Shown here: piece by piece, positions 1,597 through 60,096 of the stretch
Layout of the letters: each line of letters opens with the position of its first letter
How positions within the stretch are numbered: position 1 is the first letter of the stretch
Source: Thioploca sp.
GTDB lineage: Bacteria; Pseudomonadota; Gammaproteobacteria; Beggiatoales; Beggiatoaceae
Length of the DNA stretch: 64,000 nucleotides
Direction: 5' to 3'
Assembly (NCBI GenBank): GCA_012032555.1
Contig: JAAUSR010000018.1
Span: 1-64,000 of the forward strand
The notes under the pieces: generated by a model
Told to the model about the DNA's origin: nothing
Seen by the model: the letters and a program-made list of their open reading frames with translations, nothing else
Databases searched by the model: none
Made by a program: the position numbers and the translations under genes

Positions 1597-3834
1597 TTAG
1601 TGAGGAATTGGCAACCAATCGTCAACCTCAGTTTCCAAATGAGGAATTAATAACCAATCGTCAATACCCGGTCCAATGATATAGAAAGTTCGATTACCTT
1701 GAGAATCAATTTCTTCTAATCCGTAACAATAATCAGTTAGATCATCAGCAATTTCATACTCATAAAGATCTCCACTCTCGAAACTTCCTTGAGCTTCAAT
1801 CGGCTCGGTAGTTAGACGGATGACATCAGTAGTATTTGAATAATCTGCACATAGTCCCTCAGAAGTCGGTTGAGCTTGCCACAGGTGAAAAGCCAGCGTA
1901 TCGTCTTCTGATAACGTTTGCCAGGTTATCAATAAAGTATTGTTAGCTGTTGGCGTGATGCTAAAATCACCAAGTTCTACCAATAAATCGGTACCAAACA
2001 CCGCGGTACAATTTTTATCAGCATCCATATTCACTATTAAAGGATTAGTTGTGCCTTGGCAATTTCCCACCCATTTTTTAAAGTCGCTTGCCGGCGCAGC
2101 AGTCAGCATCACCGTTGTTCCAGGGGGATAGTTAGCTACGCAGGTTACTCCACAATCGATACCGCCGATATCGCTAGTGATGGTGCCAGAGCCTTGTTTG
2201 GTGAGGGTAAGTTGGACAGTATTATCATCATCAGTACTGATAATCGTTTCAGCAGTGATATTGGATAATTTTTTACCATAGGCAAAAGCATTTACTTGGG
2301 TCGTTAAAGTATCTTGACCACCGGCTGCCAGTAACGTGAAATTAGCCGTTATCAAGGTAAAAGTCCCTTGAGGTCGATCTGCTAATAAATGAATAGCAAT
2401 AGAGTAGATTCTCCCTTGATTGTTTTCTACCGGGGTGTGGTAAATCGGCGTATTGAGATAATCACTAATTTCAATCTGATTGACTTTTAGTAAAGTTGGA
2501 TCGAAGGATAAAAGTACTCCTGCTGTATCAATAGGTTGAGTTCCCGTCTGTATTTTTACTGTTGCCTTAAAATGACTGCCTACGGTTAAAAGTGGAACTC
2601 TATGACCTTTTTTGAGATAAGGTCTTTCATTTTCATTCATTTCACCCAGTATTTCTAAGGTACCCGCCTTACTGAATACCTCTGTAAATACTTGAGCATC
2701 AACTCCTTTTTTTTCGCAATCTACTTTGCCATTGTCGTTTAGATCAAAGTGCTCAGTTAAGAATAGTGGGTCGCTATCTTGGACATCTACGACTCCGTCT
2801 AAGTTGTAATCTATTTTATCTGCTTCTATTTTAGTAGGAGAATTACAAAAAGTAGCAAACATACTGGCATCATTTCCATCAATTAGATTGTCTGGCGGTT
2901 CATTTTGAAAGGTTTGACCGTTATAACCGACAACATCTCCTCGTTGTAATTTGTCAAACTGTTTAGGGTTACCTCCACATCTAGCAACAATGTCTCGCTT
3001 TTGCTGTAACGCATTGGTAGCACTGACATAGACAGTGTAAGTAGCACCTAATTCAAATTCACCGTCCAGAACAAATTGATCGGAGTCCATTTTTATGGAT
3101 TCATGAATAATTTCATCTTCTGGTTTTGATGAAATAAATGGATAAACATGAATTCTTAACCAATGACCTTTAGCACCAGGAACGACACCGGTTAGTTGAC
3201 CCTTACTTTTTACTGGAAAGGTTGTCGGCTCAAGCTCAGCTAGGGAAATTGGTTTCCCACTCGATCGAATTGCCGTTTTACTCCCTTCAAATCCTAAGGT
3301 AACGTTGTCTGCTAGAATGCCAGGCTTGACTTGAAAGGGAATCGTCATGACATCCGCCATTCCTGAGACCGGAGGAATAGCTATCCCCATAAAGCTAATA
3401 TTTCCGTTTTTAACCGTTGATGGCAATAATTCGGTAAAACCGGAACCAATTTTAACGCTGCCATCAACTTTGAGAATTGCGGGATCAAATTTTAGGACAA
3501 TATTAGCTTGATCAACTTCTTGTCCTTCAGGTAGTTGTAACTGTACTTTAACTTCAAAAGAAGTATTACAGGTTGTTGATTCCGGTGGTATTATAATCAA
3601 GGTAGCCAATAATTCCTCTGCCGATCCATGCCAAAACCCAGCAATGAATTGCGAATTTTGAGCCGGTATAAAAGGTTGACCGATGGTGTGACCTAGGCTA
3701 GTGTTACCTGAAGTTGTGTAATTACCACCGGAGGCGATAACTTGGTGGGTTAGAACTGACGTATTAACTGTTCCGTAAATACACGCAAGTAATATATTAA
3801 CTAGCCAAAGTAAATATTTATTAATGGTAAACAT
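1597..3834 (-). CDS. Exported protein with two cohesin-like domains, EF-hand calcium sites and an InlB-type repeat
   Basis: A hydrophobic N-terminus (about residues 5-25) indicates export. A cohesin-like beta-sandwich follows at about residues 78-200 (ANIVLKFDPAILKVDG). Two EF-hand-like loops follow (DYNLDGVVDVQDSD near 342 and DLNDNGKVDCEKKG near 360), as in dockerin modules. A second cohesin-like domain lies at about 410-540 (GVLLSFDPTLLKVN). A divergent InlB B-repeat with paired Cys lies at about 548-608. The tail repeats a DDWLxIPH motif. Cohesin and dockerin pieces in non-cellulolytic bacteria usually serve surface protein assembly; the partner here is unknown. GGAA stands just before the ATG. 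The gene begins 20 bases after the preceding minus-strand gene, so the two are probably co-transcribed. Confidence 0.7.
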   Translation of the reverse strand: MFTINKYLLWLVNILLACIYGTVNTSVLTHQVIASGGNYTTSGNTSLGHTIGQPFIPAQNSQFIAGFWHGSAEELLATLIIIPPESTTCNTSFEVKVQLQLPEGQEVDQANIVLKFDPAILKVDGSVKIGSGFTELLPSTVKNGNISFMGIAIPPVSGMADVMTIPFQVKPGILADNVTLGFEGSKTAIRSSGKPISLAELEPTTFPVKSKGQLTGVVPGAKGHWLRIHVYPFISSKPEDEIIHESIKMDSDQFVLDGEFELGATYTVYVSATNALQQKRDIVARCGGNPKQFDKLQRGDVVGYNGQTFQNEPPDNLIDGNDASMFATFCNSPTKIEADKIDYNLDGVVDVQDSDPLFLTEHFDLNDNGKVDCEKKGVDAQVFTEVFSKAGTLEILGEMNENERPYLKKGHRVPLLTVGSHFKATVKIQTGTQPIDTAGVLLSFDPTLLKVNQIEISDYLNTPIYHTPVENNQGRIYSIAIHLLADRPQGTFTLITANFTLLAAGGQDTLTTQVNAFAYGKKLSNITAETIISTDDDNTVQLTLTKQGSGTITSDIGGIDCGVTCVANYPPGTTVMLTAAPASDFKKWVGNCQGTTNPLIVNMDADKNCTAVFGTDLLVELGDFSITPTANNTLLITWQTLSEDDTLAFHLWQAQPTSEGLCADYSNTTDVIRLTTEPIEAQGSFESGDLYEYEIADDLTDYCYGLEEIDSQGNRTFYIIGPGIDDWLLIPHLETEVDDWLPIPH

Positions 3835-3854
3835 GGCTAATTTCCATTCTAATT

Positions 3855-4544
3855 TTAGTTACATTGAGTTTGAGCAAGAATATATACAGTTCCTCTCATC
3901 TTCCCTCCTTGTTGTTTTAGACACCATGAAAAATCATTAGTTAGGTCATTAAACCAAGTTTGAGAAAATTTTCCGGGTATAGTACATTTGGAAAGTTCTC
4001 GTGGTTCAAAGCATACTTCCCCAACTTTAATTTTATTACCAGAAAAGGCAGGTCCGGTATCTCCTTTCGGACCTGTATCACCTTTATCTCCCTTAGGACC
4101 AGGAACATTATTAGAACAAAACCAAATTTTGCTGTTGGAATTCCACGCGGGAACTTGCCCATTGGAACAATTGAGTTTACCCAAAGTCGCTTCATCAACT
4201 GTTTGGGCATGAAAAGCATAAGGGACGCTAGAAAGAGGGGTAGGGGGTGAGATGATAATCTGTCCACCCACGGTAGCTTGCACGTTCAATTTTGTTGTAT
4301 CAGGATCGAGCTTACTGAAATCTAAACCACTAAAATCCAATTGAACAGCAAAAACACCTTGGCTAACGGGGACGTCATCGGTTTGAGTCCACGAAGTACC
4401 ATCGAGAGAAAAGGTCAGTTTAACAGAGGGATTATCAATCGGTTTTTTGGCTACCTCGTCAAACAAATAGCCTTGATAACTGATCGTTTTGGGTACTTCT
4501 GCTTGACTTACCCAGGGTAAAATACTGAGACAAACAGCCACCAA
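3855..4544 (-). CDS. Exported protein with short collagen-like segment; start apparently controlled by a pentanucleotide repeat
   Basis: The reading frame has a hydrophobic export segment (LFLFLVAVCLSILPWVSQA), a beta-rich domain, then a short collagen-like GPKGDKGDTGPKGDTGP segment near residue 150 and a Cys-containing tail. Within this frame no ATG precedes the hydrophobic segment. Only TTG (4544) and GTG (4541) exist, and both leave a signal peptide without basic residues. Upstream, eight copies of a 5-base repeat (4561-4600) separate the frame from paired ATG codons at 4623 and 4620, which read in a different frame. One more repeat, or two fewer, would join the ATG codons to the gene. The given start at 4544 is therefore provisional. 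The downstream gene at 1597-3834 lies in the same transcript orientation. Confidence 0.65.
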   Translation of the reverse strand: MVAVCLSILPWVSQAEVPKTISYQGYLFDEVAKKPIDNPSVKLTFSLDGTSWTQTDDVPVSQGVFAVQLDFSGLDFSKLDPDTTKLNVQATVGGQIIISPPTPLSSVPYAFHAQTVDEATLGKLNCSNGQVPAWNSNSKIWFCSNNVPGPKGDKGDTGPKGDTGPAFSGNKIKVGEVCFEPRELSKCTIPGKFSQTWFNDLTNDFSWCLKQQGGKMRGTVYILAQTQCN

Positions 4545-4560
4545 AAATAAAAAAAGAGGG

Positions 4561-4600
4561 ATTTGATTTGATTTGATTTGATTTGATTTGATTTGATTTG
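4561..4600. repeat. (ATTTG)x8 pentanucleotide tandem repeat (CAAAT on the coding strand)
   Basis: Eight perfect copies between the ATG codons at 4620/4623 and the signal-peptide region of the minus-strand gene. In the gene's frame the repeat reads as IKSNQ units, and a TGA stop lies directly upstream at 4602-4604. In the ATG frame translation runs out of frame and stops early inside the gene. Unit length 5 is not a multiple of 3, so slippage changes the frame. This is the layout of known contingency loci. Confidence 0.85.
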
Positions 4601-4623
4601 ATCAAAAAAGTATAAGTCATCAT

Positions 4624-4951
4624 GGTCTCTACCTACTAAGTGAAATTAATGTAGCTCATTTGTGGTTAGGTAGCCACACTTCGCTCTAAGTAATGTTGCT
4701 ATTGAAGTTGGTTTAATTTCCCTTATCATTTTCCTACTAAATGATCAAATATGGAATCTATCATGAAATCACTTTGACATAAAACTAATATTTTTTATAT
4801 ATATAGTCAATATATTTATGGTTTTTACTTCACTTGTCCACTTGTTGCTAAGCTTCGCTTTTGCCCACCCTATCTGACTTCCACTAGGGGTAGTTAAAAA
4901 ATTTAATTTTATTCATAGGTAGAACGCAGCGAAATACTAATATTCCTGAAT
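4624..4951. other. Intergenic region, AT-rich, no gene seen
   Basis: I see no coding sequence. It holds the promoter region of the repeat-controlled minus-strand gene and a fragment (about 4849-4875) of the CTTCGCTTTTGCCCACCCTA repeat family found at 5911, 32280 and 41752. Confidence 0.5.
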
Positions 4952-5371
4952 TTAATCCAGTTTGGAGAAACTTTTACTAATTTTAACCATACCTAACAAT
5001 TTAACCGCTTTAGCATCAAAACTGACCGTATATTCACAACCTTTTGATTGATTAACCCGCATTAATAGCACATCAGAAAAGTCTGCCGTTGATTCTTGAT
5101 AAACCTGGAGCGCTTCCCAAACTACTTGGGGTTCTTGAATGGATAGTTGCTTGGTTTCGATCAAAGCTTGAATAATTTCCACCAATTTCTCTTTGGGTAC
5201 TTTATAACAAGTTTTCAGTACCCAAATAACTTCGCATAACACAATATGACAAATAAAACCGGGTTGAGTTTCGGTACATTCTCGTTCAATAAAAGTCGTA
5301 GCGATGGCAGATTGCTCTAAGTCATCTTGAACGAGGTAACGAATCACTACATTCGCATCTAACCCTTTCAC
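4952..5371 (-). CDS. vapC: PIN-domain toxin, VapC-like
   Basis: PIN-fold ribonuclease of a type II toxin-antitoxin pair, expected to cleave RNA when freed from its antitoxin. The acidic site residues are visible: Asp5 in GLDANVVIRYL, Glu in LCEVIWVL (about residue 47), Asp in ADFSDVLL (about 97-100) and Asp in SFDAKAVKLL (about 119). The 139-residue length is typical. Its ATG overlaps the stop of the upstream antitoxin by four bases (ATGA), so the two are translationally coupled. Confidence 0.85.
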   Translation of the reverse strand: MKGLDANVVIRYLVQDDLEQSAIATTFIERECTETQPGFICHIVLCEVIWVLKTCYKVPKEKLVEIIQALIETKQLSIQEPQVVWEALQVYQESTADFSDVLLMRVNQSKGCEYTVSFDAKAVKLLGMVKISKSFSKLD

Positions 5372-5613
5372 AAACCATCTCTTCCCATAGTAGCTATGGT
5401 CATATTCATTTCCTCAATGGAAACGGGTTCAGGTGGGCTTGGAACAATGCCTTTAAGTTCTCGCACATCTCTAGTGATGGGTACTATGGTGAAAGTTCCT
5501 TGAGGATTGATGAAAAATTGCAGCTGTACTCCCGGTGTTAAACTCAGCCGTGTTCTGACTTCTTCGGGGAGGGTAATTTGCCAGTTTTGGGTAATAGTAG
5601 CCGTAGCAGACAT
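5368..5613 (-). CDS. vapB: AbrB/MazE-type antitoxin partner of VapC
   Basis: Small DNA-binding antitoxin with a swapped-hairpin AbrB fold: the N-terminus reads ATITQNWQITLPEEVRTRL, followed by GVQLQFFINPQG. The C-terminal half would wrap and neutralise the PIN toxin. I prefer the ATG at 5613 (MSATATI) to the TTG three codons earlier. It is first in a two-gene operon and probably represses its own promoter, as is usual for such pairs. Confidence 0.8.
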   Translation of the reverse strand: MSATATITQNWQITLPEEVRTRLSLTPGVQLQFFINPQGTFTIVPITRDVRELKGIVPSPPEPVSIEEMNMTIATMGRDGL

Positions 5614-5831
5614 ATTTAGCAATCTATTGAATTAAGTGATATTGTTTAAAATACCCCTCTAGATAAGAATTAGCAAGAAAAACTAGACCCTTTAGCGAGC
5701 TTAGCTCAAAGGGAATAAAGTGAAATCTGGGGCATCATTATCCTAAATCCGCTATGCTTCATCCGAGCTACACTGGCTTGCTCCCACCTTTTGCAAAGGC
5801 AGGAAATTTTATCAAAGGGGGAAATTCAGTA

Positions 5832-5897
5832 AGGTGGGCGAAATGCCGTCCACTACTGGTGGCGTGATAACGAAACTCACCCGGCATTTTGCCCACC
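5832..5897. repeat. Long inverted repeat, GGTGGGCGAAATGCCG...CGGCATTTTGCCCACC
   Basis: Arms of about 16 bases enclose CCACTACTGGTGGCGTGATAACGAAACTC. The left arm and loop recur at 32096-32145 (GGTGGGCGAAATACCATCC...GGTGGCGTTGTAACGAAA). It can form a stable hairpin on either strand. Confidence 0.75.
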
Positions 5898-5910
5898 GTC
5901 AGTGGAAGAA

Positions 5911-5940
5911 AGGTGGGCAACGCTTCGCTTTTGCACACCC
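5911..5940. repeat. GGTGGGCAACGCTTCGCTTTTGC hairpin repeat
   Basis: Same family as 32279-32306 and 41752-41782, with partial copies near 4849. With the previous entry it fills most of the gap between vapBC and the tetR gene. Confidence 0.7.
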
Positions 5941-5975
5941 TACTAAAAATACAGATTATAGACAGAGTTGCAATA

Positions 5976-37195: not shown

Positions 37196-40100
37196 ATGAA
37201 ACGTTATCTCGCTTATCTATTTTTATTTTTAACCTTATTCTTTTCTGTGGTTCAAGCCGCTGAATGGGAAGTAATGACACCCCGTTTAAATAAACAGTTT
37301 TTGGCTATTTGGGGAAGTGCTTCTAATGATGTATTTGCTGTAGGAGTATTAGGTTTAATTTTTCACTATGATGGCTCAAAATAGAGCGAAATGGATAGTG
37401 GGAGTTTGTATGAGCTTTGGGATATCTGGGGTACTTCTAGCACGGATGTGTTTGCAGTCGGTAGGAAGGGTACGATTCTCCACTATGATGGTCACCAGTG
37501 GACCGCCATGAACAGTGGAACTACCTCTATCCTTCTTGGTATCTGGGGTATTTCTAGCACGGATGTATTTGCGGTCGGTACGAATGGTACGATTCTCCAC
37601 TATGATGGTCACCAATGGACTACTATGAACAGTTGGGTTACCTTTTCTCTTTATGATATTTGGGGCAGTTCTAGTACCGATGTCTTTGCAGTCGGTTGGA
37701 ATAATAGCATTATCCTTCACTATGAAGGCCACCAGTGGACTGTTATAAACAGTGATGTTACTGTACTCCAAGGCATTTGGGGTACTTCTAGTACGGATGT
37801 CTTTGCAGTCGGTATCAATAGTACGAGTTGGGATGAGATTTTCCACTATGATGGTAATCGGTGGACCGCTATAAACCATAAAGAAACCGCCGGGCTTGAT
37901 AGTATCTGGGGTACTTCCAGCAGTGATGTATTTGCAGTTGGTAGAGAGGGTACGGTTCTCCACTATGATGGTCACCAGTGGACTACTATGGATAGTGGAA
38001 CTACCCTTCGTCTTCGTGACATCTGGGGTACTTCTAGCACCGATGTCTTTGCGGTCGGTAGTACGGTTACTGGTGATGTAATCGGTAGTAGTAATGGTGT
38101 AATTCTTCACTATGATGGTCACCAGTGGACTGTTATGGACACTGAAAATCCATCTCCTATTGATGGTTATTATAGTGGTATCTGGGGCACTTCTGACACT
38201 GATATGTTTATAGTCGGTTCCAAAGGTAAAATTCTCCACTATGATGGTTACCAGTGGATCGCTATGAACAGCGGAACTAACTCTGATCTTCATCATATCT
38301 GGGGTACTTCTAGTACCGATGTGTTTGTGATCGGTACGGAGGATACGATTCTCCACTACGATGGTCACCAGTGGACTACCATGAGTATCGGAATTACTCA
38401 TTCTTGGCTTAGTGACATCTGGGGTACTTCCAGCAATGATGTATTTGTAGCCGGTAGTGAGGGTACAATTTTGCACTACGATGGTTATCAGTGGACTACC
38501 ATGAACAGTGGAACGACTTCTTGGCTTGGTGATATCTGGGGTACTTCCAGCACTAATGTGTTTGTAGTTGGTAGTGAAGGTACAATTCTTCACTATGATG
38601 GCTATCGGTGGACTGTCACGAACAGTGAAATTAACCTTAACCTTACTGAGGTATGGGGTACTTCTAGTACCGATGTGTTTGCAGCCGGTTATAATAATAG
38701 CTATAACAACGGTGTTATTCTCCACTACGATGGTCACCAGTGGACTGTTATAAACAGTGAGATTAGATTTCCTCTTTTTATAATCTGCGGAAATTCTAGC
38801 ACTAATATATTTGCTATAGGTGAAGTTAGGCTTATCCGGGATGATAGCAATAATGTGACAGAAATAAATGCTATTCATTATGATGGTAATAATTGGATGG
38901 AAATAAAAGATTTACCTTACCTCTTAGCTTTCTGGGTTAGTCCGCAAGGTGAATTATTTGCGTTAACTGGCTACCACCCTACTTCTGTCATTATCCGCTA
39001 TACCGGTGACCAACCCAATAACCCCAATTTGCAGACCAATTTCCCTCAAACGCTTTCCAATCTGCAACCAGACCAAACCGATTACCAGTCAAAAATCGCT
39101 AATCTACAAATTAATCCAAGTTCTCACTCATTTCAAAACGTTGCTATAGATCAACAAGCGAGCCAAACCTTCACCATTACCAACGCCAGTAACAACGCGA
39201 TTTCATTACCATCTCTAACACTAACCAACACGACCGATTTTACTCTTAACAATGATAATTGTTCTAATACACTTTTAACCCCGGCTAATACCTGCCAAGT
39301 CAATGTCGATTTCCAACCTCAATCCGAAGGTCAGAAGTTAACTAAATTGAACCTAGCAAGTGATTCCATCACAATTGCAGTTCCACTAGAAGGTAGCGGT
39401 TGCTTAAATTCTTCAGAACAATCATTTCAGCTTTCGCCAGAATTACTTCACTTTAAGCCACTGTTAGTTAACCAATCCATGACCTTGGCTCCAACACTAA
39501 CCTTTACGGCTACTCCAGGATGTGGTGATGAAATACCACAACTAGAAACCATTCAGTTGATAGGTAAAGATGCGGCGGAATTCAGCCTTCAAAATATTCA
39601 GTGTTCTCACTCTCATGAAGAGAAAAAATCTTCTTCTACTTGCCAATTCAACCTCATCTTTAAACCCACTTCCCCAGGAGACAAACAAGCCGAGTTAGCT
39701 TTCCAATTGTTAAATCATGAGGAATTATCCACCTCGACAATTCCTTTCTCCGCTCAAGCCATTATCGACAAACCCGCTCAATTAACGATTGAGAAAGATA
39801 CTATTCCATCTCCATCTCAACCGTTGGTGATTATTCCAACCACTTCAACAGCTGCCCCTGAAACCAAAATACTTATTGAGGCAGATACCATTCCATCTCA
39901 ACCCATTTCGGTCAATCCAACAGCGCAACCCGAAACCGCAGCCGTGCATACTCCAAAAGATACCACGCCATACCAAATAATCTCGGTCGATTCAAGTGAA
40001 AAAGATACTGAGCGATATCAAGCTGTTGGAACGATCAACGATCAATTAGGTAACCCAATTGCGGGGGTAACCATAAAAATGGGTAACCAAACTACCATCA

Positions 40101-56400: not shown

Positions 56401-59400
56401 TTCATAGCGACCGATTTGGATAAAATCGTCAAACTGTCCCCTAAATTCATTACCGCTAGCTAAGCCCAGTTCGATTCGTTCTAATCCCTCCATTGCCAAC
56501 GTTTCCCGTTGTTCGATACCATTGTTAGTTAATTGCAGACTAGGCGGGCGAATATCGACAAAAACTTGTTCGCCTTTCACGCGACTCGGTTGATTAACCT
56601 GTGCCCATAATGGCGCGCTAGTGATATTAGCCTCTAAGTGCAAGGTCGGGGTGACATTTAAAATCATCGCTGGACTATCAGGTGCCGTGGGATCATATTG
56701 TGGTCCTAAACCTAAATAAATAGTTTTAGCCACTTGACCATCAACTTCCAACACATTACTGCCTTGGTTATCACTATTGTCATCGAGTAACGGATGTTGC
56801 ACTGCATTATCTTGAAATTGCTCGTTAAAAAAGTCAGTGTCATCCGCACGAGTAAACAGTTCGGTACTTTGCGTTGCTAATTCAAAAGCGGTTTTTAGTG
56901 AGTAGCCTTGACCAAGCTGGGCAAACAACGCTTCAATAAAATATTCACCACTGCGCACTTCATCGGGTTCTTTGGGGCCTTTGTAAGATTCTTCTCCGGG
57001 TGCGGTACTCGTTACCAAAATTCGACCGGGTTTAGATAAAGCCGAGGTGAAATTGCCAGAATAGCACGAACCGATAATAATCACGCGGGGTTGAGCTTTA
57101 GCTAGGTCGTTTAAACCCTGTTCTAACGCCGTTAACCAAGTATCCAATTCGGTGGGGGCAATTTCTTCGTGGTTACCATTATCCAAATGAAAATTTCCCT
57201 CTAAATCACCGTGATCGACCATGACAATGTACAGCGGCGCCGGATCGACATTGAGACGAGTTAGTAACGTTTTTAAGGCCGTTTGAATTTTCGCTTTATC
57301 TGGGGTGTCATCGACTAAAATCCCAACTTGATTTTGGCCATAACCGAGATAGTCAATATTATCATCAATAAAGCCGCGATTGATCAGTTTTTGATACACG
57401 CGATTGAGCGATTTACCATAGGTTTCCTGACCCTTGCCTTTGGCATCCCGTCCTTGGACTAACAACGCATAACCGGCTAACGCACTGACTAACACCGTTT
57501 GTGGCTCGGATTGACTCGCGGCTAAGCGATCATCATTCGCAAACTGGGCTTGTAATTGATACTGACCCGTTTGAGTTAAAACTGGTAATTGAGTAAAGTG
57601 ATATTCACCGCTCGCTGTCGTAGTAACATCCAGCGTGGTTATGCTGCCATCCGGAGCAGTTATTTGCAATTGAATCGGTAATTCTTTCAGACCGGCGGGT
57701 TGCTGCGGATAACTTGTTAACTTGCCTTTAGCGGTTAAGTGACCATTTTGGAAAATCGCCATACTGCTTAAAGTTAACTCCAAGCGAGTTGGAATTTGAG
57801 TGACCGTGATAATCACCGTTTCTTTCGCCGTGCGTTGATCGAAGGGTTCGGTTACCGCTACCGTTACTGAAAATTCCCCGGTTTGAGTCGGCGTCCAAGT
57901 AAATTCTCCAGTTTTTTTATCAATCTGCGCACCCGGCGGGGCATTGAGCAAACTAAAAGTTAAGGCTGGCGCTTCGGGAAAATCCGCTTGGGCAGTGAAA
58001 GTTAAGGTGTTATCAACTAGTACCGTTTGAACTCCAATCGGCTTGAGTATCGGGACGTCAGTGACAATCACCTCAAAAGTTTGGCTCGCTTCTAAATTAT
58101 TAGGATTGACACCATTATCCGTCACCGCAACGGTTAGTTCAAAAATACCGACTTGTGTGGATGAAAATATCCATTTAAATTGACCCGTTTTAGAATCAAT
58201 GCTTGCACCGGGTGGGGGATCATCGATTAACTGATAAGTTAAATCTTGTTTTGGTACGTCGGGGTCGGTCGCTATTACTTTAAAACTGAGCAATTTATTC
58301 GGTATGCCGTATTGAGGTGCAATGGTTTCTATAACCGGGGGTTCATTGACGGGTAACACTTTGATAATCAGCGTATCAGTATCCTGTCGAGCACCACCAG
58401 AACCAGTGTGACCTAAGTCATCAATTTTTATCTCAAATATAGCTTCACCGCCAAAATTTAAAGTCGGTGTAAAGGTCATGCCGATTAAAGCGTTATTAAT
58501 AGCGGTTAAAGTACCGGTAAACACTAACCGACTATCTGCTGTACCATCACCTTCTGTAAAGGAAAGCCCTTCTTTACTATTCATCAAGGTTAAAGTACCG
58601 TTGGTAACGGTTAAGGTAACTTGAAGAGGGAAAATTCCGGCGTCATCGTCATAAATTCTTAATTCCTCGAAGGTAAAAGAGGTATTTTCATTGATGCTTT
58701 GAATTTCTATGGAGAAGTCTGAGAGGGAAGAGTCGGGGTAACTGTTAGATTCATCAAAGTAAGCAACGGCATCGTCTTTATAACCGGTGACATAGACACT
58801 ATTATTGGGAGCAACGTGGATCGATGACGCTTGTGCGAAGCCATTATTATAGTTAAGATCATTGCTATCTCTTAAGATTTGTAACAAGCTTAATTTACCA
58901 TTGCTTGGATCACGCTGAAATAACACTATAGCTGAGTCATCCCAAGAAGCGACATAAACTAATTGGTCATCTGCACCCACCGCAACCGAACGGGCGCCTT
59001 TAAGCCCCTTCACCCCATCTTGACCATCTTTAATGAAATATTGAAAGTTTAATTGTCCGGTGCTAGTTTCGCGCTGAAATACCGCTATTGCATCGTCGTC
59101 ATAACTGGCTACATAGACCCATTGATTGTTCGCACTCACCACCACGGAACTAGCACCATTCAGTCCATCCACATTGTCTTGTCCATCTTTTAAGACTTGT
59201 TGAAAGCTAAGTTGACCGGTGTTGGTATCGCGCTGAAATACTGCTACAGCATCGTCTTGGTTACTGGTCACATAGACCGATTGGTTATCCGCACTCACCG
59301 CCACAGAACTGGCGCCATCCAATCCATCGACATTGTCCTGTCCGTCTTTTAGAACTTGTTGAAAGCTGAGTTGACCAGTGTTGAGATCACGCTCAAATAC

Positions 59401-60096
59401 TGCTATGGCATCGTTTTGATGACTGGTTACATAAACTGATTTGTTGTCCGCACTGACTGTCACAAAACTCGCACCGTCCAACCCATCCACATTGTCTTGT
59501 CCGTCTTTTAGGACTTGTTGAAAGCTTAATAGACCAGTGTTGATATCACGCTGAAATACTGCTATGGCGTCGTCCTGGTTACTAGCCACATAGACCGATT
59601 GGTTATCCGTACTCACCGCCACAGAATTGGCACCGTCCAACCCATCTACACCATCTTGTCCATCCTTCAAGAATTGTTGTACAAAATTTAATTGACCCAT
59701 GTTGATATCGCGCTGAAATACTGCTACGGCATCATCTTGGTTACTAGTTACATAGACTAATTGATCGTCTGCGCTCACCACCATGGAACTGACATTATTA
59801 AGCTCACCAAACCAACTGATTTTAATAACTTGAATCGGAATAACTTCACCAGTGGTTGGATTACGTATCAATACTGTTATTGCATCATCTTCCATAGAGG
59901 CTACATAGACGAATTTGTCATCATGACTGGCTGCTACTAAATTAGCGCCATCCAATCCTTCAATTCGGCCATTACCTTCTTGAATAAACCCATAAAAACT
60001 TAAATCGGCTAAAGCAGAAACCGGTAAAGTAAGCAAACAACTCGGTAACCACAAATAGACAGTAAGTAACAGCGGAATAAAAATAGTTTTGTTCAT
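53428..60096 (-). CDS. Giant exported protein: beta-propeller, Ig-like domains, caspase-like protease, Calx-beta repeats
   Basis: A signal peptide (IFIPLLLTVYLWLPSCLLTL to ALA) is followed by about eight copies of a 47-residue propeller unit (GLDGASSVAVSADNQSVYVT). Cadherin/He-PIG-like domains follow at about 450-780. A caspase/legumain-like peptidase domain lies near 870-1110, with IVMVDHGDLEG (catalytic His near 962) and IIIGSCYSGNF (catalytic Cys near 1011). Fibronectin-like domains come next, then four Calx-beta domains (for example YHVEEGQLTWADQDSLPKKI) at about 1500-2030, and a C-terminal module also found in the chimeric gene at 36630. GAGGAG precedes GTG-ATG, and I take the ATG at 60096. 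An exported protease with calcium-binding surface repeats fits processing or self-processing of a surface structure. Confidence 0.85.
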   Translation of the reverse strand: MNKTIFIPLLLTVYLWLPSCLLTLPVSALADLSFYGFIQEGNGRIEGLDGANLVAASHDDKFVYVASMEDDAITVLIRNPTTGEVIPIQVIKISWFGELNNVSSMVVSADDQLVYVTSNQDDAVAVFQRDINMGQLNFVQQFLKDGQDGVDGLDGANSVAVSTDNQSVYVASNQDDAIAVFQRDINTGLLSFQQVLKDGQDNVDGLDGASFVTVSADNKSVYVTSHQNDAIAVFERDLNTGQLSFQQVLKDGQDNVDGLDGASSVAVSADNQSVYVTSNQDDAVAVFQRDTNTGQLSFQQVLKDGQDNVDGLNGASSVVVSANNQWVYVASYDDDAIAVFQRETSTGQLNFQYFIKDGQDGVKGLKGARSVAVGADDQLVYVASWDDSAIVLFQRDPSNGKLSLLQILRDSNDLNYNNGFAQASSIHVAPNNSVYVTGYKDDAVAYFDESNSYPDSSLSDFSIEIQSINENTSFTFEELRIYDDDAGIFPLQVTLTVTNGTLTLMNSKEGLSFTEGDGTADSRLVFTGTLTAINNALIGMTFTPTLNFGGEAIFEIKIDDLGHTGSGGARQDTDTLIIKVLPVNEPPVIETIAPQYGIPNKLLSFKVIATDPDVPKQDLTYQLIDDPPPGASIDSKTGQFKWIFSSTQVGIFELTVAVTDNGVNPNNLEASQTFEVIVTDVPILKPIGVQTVLVDNTLTFTAQADFPEAPALTFSLLNAPPGAQIDKKTGEFTWTPTQTGEFSVTVAVTEPFDQRTAKETVIITVTQIPTRLELTLSSMAIFQNGHLTAKGKLTSYPQQPAGLKELPIQLQITAPDGSITTLDVTTTASGEYHFTQLPVLTQTGQYQLQAQFANDDRLAASQSEPQTVLVSALAGYALLVQGRDAKGKGQETYGKSLNRVYQKLINRGFIDDNIDYLGYGQNQVGILVDDTPDKAKIQTALKTLLTRLNVDPAPLYIVMVDHGDLEGNFHLDNGNHEEIAPTELDTWLTALEQGLNDLAKAQPRVIIIGSCYSGNFTSALSKPGRILVTSTAPGEESYKGPKEPDEVRSGEYFIEALFAQLGQGYSLKTAFELATQSTELFTRADDTDFFNEQFQDNAVQHPLLDDNSDNQGSNVLEVDGQVAKTIYLGLGPQYDPTAPDSPAMILNVTPTLHLEANITSAPLWAQVNQPSRVKGEQVFVDIRPPSLQLTNNGIEQRETLAMEGLERIELGLASGNEFRGQFDDFIQIGRYELFYFVVDSDTGDRSLLQRSLVYKNRTGNQPPTPVQLRAPQNANETPTTVIFAWQPSSDPDNDPVTYTFLLATEPSMRQIIYRQEELRMTMTYLNSESVIADPLNQGQLGLRDGTEYAWQVQAVDKYGAMSESPVFTFQTNDTNLPPGLGSLYVYNAVDFVSLENAILDFWLTDEWGNLILDANGLPIPVPQPPELFQDQGFYNLTLPYGRRRATLHATGYQDQPVLIDTTDGLAQLRVAMTPVGGIPLQPGQLQLAAEQTRVDETQGQITLVVKRVGGDDGAVSVAYQGLPDGSASLGTDYHVEEGQLTWADQDSLPKKILVTLLDDNQKESDETFALRLNNPGGGATLGTPNTITITLLDDEAQQPLPPGTLPSQTPTYTEETGDIQLEEPIQTITDNEIIPTQPKENTVIVPPQPGDTTSPQTNPPTTDTPIVITSSESQAGILQFITNTYYLNEGIGSVSAFTVIRSGGNQGSVSVKYTTTIGTADMGIDYVGGTGLLTWADGDDMPKAIEIQIIDDSQSEGPETIQLQLINPTGNAQLGIDDHAILIIADNDTATAASSVSVLNSELNQNDIAVLQFESALHWSQEEDGGINLIITRTGSSQGEVAVNYLETLHSNATPGEDYLNGSGSLIWTDGDNQPKTITLNLIDDDFPEAEFIHLVLVEPLGQAVLGKQSETVIILQDQDEANPVQADITSIQLVKPIEIITESQNEVLIPVIRTGTQGYAAINYETIAGSATVDEDYLPRQGHLVWQDGEEGVVGLIIPIIADSQPEPEESFTLQLFNPSEGVQLGKLSQVEIRIQDSSHSTETQISPLLPNLGRGMAVVNDPTTSWPTRFNNCQAFPCPLNAAFRGGSSFNGLSYYQRLTLHPYQYVNIRGEIDVAAEHVGQTAELLVVAAWQPLDSLEPAHYFMQGEQGQILPWDLNLAHLVAAQAGVKLTPTQAVHLYTGFLASGQIRLFFGYQLPDGVIVFNGEQALELVVTELATD

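Follow-up and report, generated by a model that had tools for sequence, protein, structure and literature searches.

A pentanucleotide repeat at the start of a predicted fibre gene in Thioploca, a probable phase-variable contingency locus

Described repeat systems and the Thioploca locus

Repeat-driven phase variation is best known from host-adapted pathogens. Switching of the Neisseria opa genes, which carry CTCTT repeats in the leader-peptide sequence, takes place at ∼1e-3 per cell per generation (PMC3745409), and the CTCTT count ranges from 2 to 30 (PMC5320596). The TAACTGA repeats of the Beggiatoaceae are intergenic and found particularly directly upstream of start codons, and translational regulation has been suggested for them (PMC4679880). 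Phase variation has been raised for these bacteria, in general terms, with regard to TAACTGA-like repeats (PMC4853749) and is mentioned as background in PMC4679880; the passages available from either paper describe no frame switch. Among the best-ranked matches in the open-licence literature we found no SSR frame switch reported from the Beggiatoaceae/Thioploca group, and, the general suggestion in PMC4853749 aside, these matches do not contradict an earlier note on this DNA that knew of no such case in the group. A further system for comparison is provided by the mosaic adhesive trimer (MAT) fibres of Bdellovibrio, in which a signal peptide is followed by a beta-rich N domain (PMC10769870).

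We analysed a window of 64,000 nt (contig JAAUSR010000018.1, positions 1 to 64,000) from a Thioploca genome, in which a pentanucleotide array precedes a gene for a predicted fibre protein. The locus is most likely an SSR contingency locus, a phase-variable fibre gene caught in the OFF state and working like Neisseria opa; the mechanism is ordinary, and the lineage is unexpected. Mechanistically, opa is the closest known system, as in both cases a pentanucleotide array lies where the signal peptide of a surface protein (here a predicted one) is encoded and changes in copy number restore or break the frame. The repeat unit and the protein are different, there is one locus here compared with about 11 in opa, and the organism is a sulfur bacterium. 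The CTCTT repeat of opa encodes the hydrophobic core, whereas the Thioploca repeat would encode the basic n-region, and the switch proposed here is read from one assembled sequence. Like the TAACTGA repeats, the array is a tandem repeat near a gene start in the same bacterial group, but its unit is CAAAT, it lies inside an ATG frame, and it would act on that frame, which places it outside the TAACTGA family. TAACTGA-type heptamer arrays are themselves present in this genome with up to 7.9 copies, at L147 (G000:C98:65530-65584 and 70501-70605) and L042:7020-7074. The predicted protein resembles MAT fibres in that its signal peptide leads into a beta-rich N domain with weak profile similarity; however, that similarity is below the family cut-off, the protein has 235 residues compared with about 840 or more in the named MATs, and it contains a collagen-like stretch, whereas MATs have a beta-helical fibre (PMC10769870). 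No repeat switch is mentioned for MAT fibres in the available passages of that paper.

The array, its reading frames and the predicted product

The (ATTTG)8 array consists of eight perfect units at 4561-4600 of the forward strand and reads (CAAAT)8 on the coding (minus) strand; TRF applied to the window reported 8.6 copies at 4560-4602 with 100% matches. CAAAT repeats contain no stop codon in any of the three coding-strand frames and encode I-K-S-N-Q per 15 nt, whereas ATTTG repeats contain TGA in each frame, so that the orientation of the array is the only one that can be read through. Upstream of the array are paired ATG codons at 4623 and 4620 (4618-4623, minus strand), with 23 and 20 nt, respectively, from the A of the ATG to the array start. 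ATG 4623 is preceded by TTAGTAGGTAGAGACC, judged by eye to be Shine-Dalgarno-like, with AGGTAGAGA at 4626-4634 (minus strand) placing AGG 8 nt before the ATG. After the array, the coding strand continues with CCCTC-T7-ATTTTTGG and the 235-codon frame of the gene body (3855-4562, minus strand), whose stop ends at 3855. The T7 run (A7 at 4549-4555 of the forward strand) lies between the array and the signal core, and the frames would also be joined by the loss of one base or the gain of two within it. A programmed -1 frameshift at T7 was considered and ruled out, because frame joining needs one base lost or two gained.

The locus was translated on paper with 0-13 copies of CAAAT. Counts of 0, 3, 6, 9, and 12 gave fusions of the ATG frame with the gene of 242-262 aa, and all other counts in this range gave only 26-59 aa. 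At the assembled count of eight, the ATG frame produces 54 aa followed by a stop (4459-4623, minus strand), which we infer to be the OFF state, and a TGA at 4602-4604 (minus strand) shuts the gene frame immediately upstream of the array. When ATG, GTG, and TTG are considered, the gene frame past this TGA contains only TTG 4544 and GTG 4541 (4539-4544, minus strand) before the mature part. This is the anatomy of a contingency locus, a perfect repeat with a unit that is not a multiple of three within coding sequence near the inferred ATG start, in which, across the counts translated, gaining or losing one unit puts the full-length frame in phase with the start codon or takes it out of phase. The earlier note had described the eight copies between the ATG pair and the signal peptide, the ATG frame that misses the gene at eight copies and joins it at six or nine, and a present frame with TTG and GTG starts alone behind a TGA, and the translations agree with it at each of these points.

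An array of this kind is exceptional in the genome. We sampled 2,087,796 nt of this Thioploca genome, window included (37.6% of 5.55 Mb), and among perfect pentamer arrays of at least three copies there were seven with three copies, none with four to seven, and this one with eight. Tetramers (42 with three copies) and hexamers (two with three copies) never reached four, so that no perfect array of four or more tetra-, penta-, or hexanucleotide units other than (ATTTG)8 is present in the 2.09 Mb sampled. An independent-base sequence of this size would be expected to hold about 3e-16 perfect runs like the eight ATTTG copies, but the background of the genome itself is the more useful yardstick. 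A search of the whole 5.55 Mb genome for (ATTTG)4 gave five overlapping matches, all within the 4561-4600 array, and none of 23 genomes of relatives contained the motif.

To score codon usage, we trained on ORFs of 300+ aa from this genome. The gene frame scored +0.148 bits per codon, compared with -0.269 and -0.416 for the two alternative frames on its strand, at most -0.08 for the opposite-strand frames, and +0.169 for the downstream neighbour gene. By codon usage, the 235-codon frame downstream of the array is coding. Its first part, IPLFLFLVAVCLSILPWVSQA (4500-4562, minus strand), corresponds by comparison with homologues to the hydrophobic core and cleavage region of a signal peptide with a putative cleavage site. 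It is followed by an N-terminal domain like that of MAT fibres, with predicted beta strands (4173-4499, minus strand); scanned alone against NF053851 (Bdello_MAT_N), the protein gave an E value of 6.1e-6 and 26.1 bits, under the curated cut-off of 60 that defines the family. A search of 42 family genomes with the same profile found matches in nine, with 0/42 above the curated cut-off, and no match at E ≤ 0.001 in this genome. The collagen-like stretch GPKGDKGDTGPKGDTG (4053-4100, minus strand; Pfam Collagen E = 0.068, below the cut-off) is preceded by two Cys and followed by four, and the protein matched no other family above a cut-off. All 20 PHROG matches listed overlap the collagen-like stretch and for that reason say little, although many are tail fibres and the best E value is 5e-4. 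A single-sequence structure model had a mean pLDDT of 52.1, with block values of 62-90 for residues 21-110 and below 50 from residue 114 on. Foldseek against the PDB returned a single hit at E ≤ 0.001, to an entry for the interleukin-2 receptor (TM score 0.26), which was set aside, and there were no PDB relatives by sequence at E ≤ 0.1. The signal peptide and the fibre-like domains suggest that the product is a small exported protein, a putative fibre that would be exposed at the surface.

Homologues of the N domain, with 33-38% identity, were found in 3 of the 39 other genomes. Gene starts were read for eight distinct homologues, leaving out L121, L123, and L127, which the motif search missed. 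Six homologous N-termini that were measured have two to six K/R, and their nonpolar runs span 16-18 residues; the homologues' signal peptides stop right before a VPMTTTYQGYL-like sequence that matches EVPKTISYQGYL in this protein. The in-frame ATG forms with three or more copies have one to four Lys and a nonpolar run of 19, and the in-frame product at n = 0 has no Lys; the TTG and GTG forms have an N-terminus of 14-15 residues with no K/R and a nonpolar run of 12-13. By this comparison, the in-frame ATG forms with three or more copies match the signal-peptide plan of the homologues, whereas the TTG and GTG forms do not. Two further claims made before any search are borne out here, namely that the TTG and GTG products have no basic residue before the cleavage region and that the IKSNQ repeat supplies Lys in the in-frame states, at one Lys per three copies. 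Short-repeat arrays were absent from the eight homologue starts except for A8 in L126 and three TAACTGA-type units upstream of L124.

The next gene, 20 nt downstream (1597-3834, minus strand), encodes 745 aa with cohesin and InlB-type B-repeat domains and is a possible operon partner of the fibre gene; no terminator-like site and no minus-strand promoter-like site was found at 3500-5400. A full-length ortholog of the fibre gene was found in none of the 39 other genomes, a genome of the same genus (G001) included, and a pattern search of genome contigs gave 58 matching stretches, none of which was confirmed. In G001, the TetR side of the neighbourhood is kept with 88% DNA identity, and the ORFs of 100+ aa left of TetR are, from the ORF lists, other genes. 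Directly upstream of the fibre gene, at 4952-5622 (minus strand), lie genes for a PIN-domain protein and for an antitoxin that resembles MazE/PrlF at scores under the Pfam cut-offs, a pair absent directly left of TetR in the G001 ORF list. The window also contains a dispersed repeat of ∼115 bp (5828-5943), pieces of which are found at 10 other places here and six in G001 with 69-95% identity, and long tandem repeats at 37397-38689 and 59018-59757, whose unit lengths (117 and 159 nt) are divisible by three.

Start-proximal repeats elsewhere

Apart from TAACTGA-type repeats, the only perfect arrays in the sample with a unit of 4-8 nt and at least six copies are (ATTTG)8 and an (ACGTCAA)6 array (L152; G000:C52:348-389) that starts 22 nt downstream of the first base of the ATG in an AraC-type regulator gene (L152:326-1072; 248 aa; HTH_18 E = 1.2e-21). 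The regulator ATG is preceded by GAGAGGGGGATTTCACT. The (ACGTCAA)6 array is in frame, and a count of seven or eight would cut the product to 26 or 30 aa. The G001 ortholog of the regulator (72% identity; L259 from 1447 in G001:C1) carries (CCGTCAA)10, starting at 4079122, 27 nt downstream of the first base of the corresponding ATG and likewise in frame. Every unit differs between the two species, and the counts are 6 and 10; these differences are as repeated slippage would leave them. A pattern of four (A/C)CGTCAA units was found in only 2 of the 42 family genomes, this one and G001. Because the array at the regulator differs in unit and count between the two species, start-proximal arrays turn over in this genus, and this difference is the strongest new evidence obtained. 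The AraC-type regulator is possibly phase-variable; an in-frame TTG is located 3′ of its array, so that the switch there, too, is a candidate one, and the in-frame state in both species fits simple selection for the protein equally. About 2.3% of the sampled sequence falls in the first 30 nt downstream of the ATG of ORFs of at least 100 aa, so the chance of both arrays being near starts is ∼5e-4, for an array class that was defined after the arrays had been seen. Twelve sampled G/C tracts with lengths of 8-9 were also tested; they lay either outside long frames or inside them, and of eight that were viewed, all in frames of 398-903 codons, seven were mid-protein and one was at codon 39.

(CAAAT)6+ is rare across GTDB representatives, with 83 stretches, of which 80 were scanned as loci and 12 viewed closely. 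Among those 12, three unrelated genomes showed by eye a like anatomy of start codon, (CAAAT)7-8, and signal-peptide core: a Bacteroidetes MAG (L209) with seven copies, in frame and followed by a lipoprotein-type signal; Crenothrix polyspora (L237), whose eight copies are out of frame; and an Armatimonadetes MAG (L202), also with eight copies and likewise out of frame, here from a GTG. An automatic test for signal-peptide starts, devised after these three had been seen and with 10 arrays near contig ends dropped, placed 4/70 arrays of (CAAAT)6+ at such starts compared with 443/20,000 random positions (2.2%), a difference that is not significant (p = 0.07). The test picked L172, L203, L209, and L248 and passed over L237 and L202.

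The proposed switch and its alternatives

Each copy gained or lost through slipped-strand mispairing at (CAAAT)n would lengthen or shorten the interval between ATG 4623 and the gene by 5 nt. At counts divisible by three (6, 9, or 12), the ATG frame would read MMTYTFL-(IKSNQ)k-IPLFLFLVAVCLSILPWVSQA, the basic residues of the signal peptide would come from the repeat, and a collagen-containing, fibre-like protein would be made and exported. At n = 8, translation would stop after 54 codons and the fibre protein would not be made; by polarity, the OFF state may also lower expression of the gene 20 nt downstream. The designation of the locus as a contingency locus in the OFF state, which originated with the earlier note, is upheld in its anatomy and coding frame and gains support from the basic signal peptides of homologues and from the second start-proximal array; OFF itself is read from the assembled count of eight, which may be only one of the states represented in the sample. 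Against the proposal we counted that only two candidate loci were found in 37.6% of the genome, that the 39 other genomes yielded no full-length ortholog and the stretch at 3500-5400 no minus-strand promoter-like site, that (CAAAT)6+ arrays show no significant association with signal-peptide starts, that both species are in frame at the AraC-type regulator, and that the assembled state lacks the protein, so that the fibre gene might be decaying.

It is improbable that the protein is made constitutively from TTG 4544 or GTG 4541, beginning MVAVCLSILPWVSQA and with the array confined to the leader, because, although both codons are present in a frame that is intact and coding, neither has a Shine-Dalgarno-like site when judged by eye, and the short N-terminus that they give, devoid of K/R, is unlike those of the homologues read. 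A chance expansion of the array that broke the gene, leaving a young pseudogene before decay, would agree with the out-of-frame assembled state, with the lack of a match to the gene in G001, and with the different G001 neighbourhood left of TetR, but we consider it unlikely, given 235 codons without another stop, normal codon usage, and an array placed where a frame switch would act, as the array of the AraC-type regulator is.

A gene that is simply on, its true count of 6 or 9 or a T6 run having been rendered as eight copies or T7 by an error of assembly or consensus, is very unlikely: the assembly is a draft of 198 contigs and a T run shorter by one base would also join the frames, but the array is perfect, and a 43-bp array and a 7-base run are resolvable with ordinary short reads, which argues against error in either count. 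Finally, the number of IKSNQ units, with one Lys per three copies, could set the length and charge of the n-region and hence the efficiency of export among in-frame counts. That the count tunes in this way instead of switching is scarcely credible, since two-thirds of counts destroy the frame and tuning would be possible only on top of switching.

A phase-variable fibre gene in the OFF state is therefore the reading that we prefer, and the locus is a switch candidate whose state could be read straight from sequencing reads. More tentatively, and on sequence grounds, the genus may possess a small phasome of gene-start microsatellites that includes a surface fibre, OFF here, and an AraC-type regulator, ON here, an idea that we regard as possible but doubtful. 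The array at the regulator, which has kept its place but not its unit or count between two species, makes this idea testable across the genus. If it is true, members of one clone could display different surfaces and also run different regulons. Were a predicted surface fibre in a sulfur oxidiser of this group indeed switched cleanly at translation, populations of these bacteria, too, would be hedging their surface, with phage defence or attachment as possible benefits.
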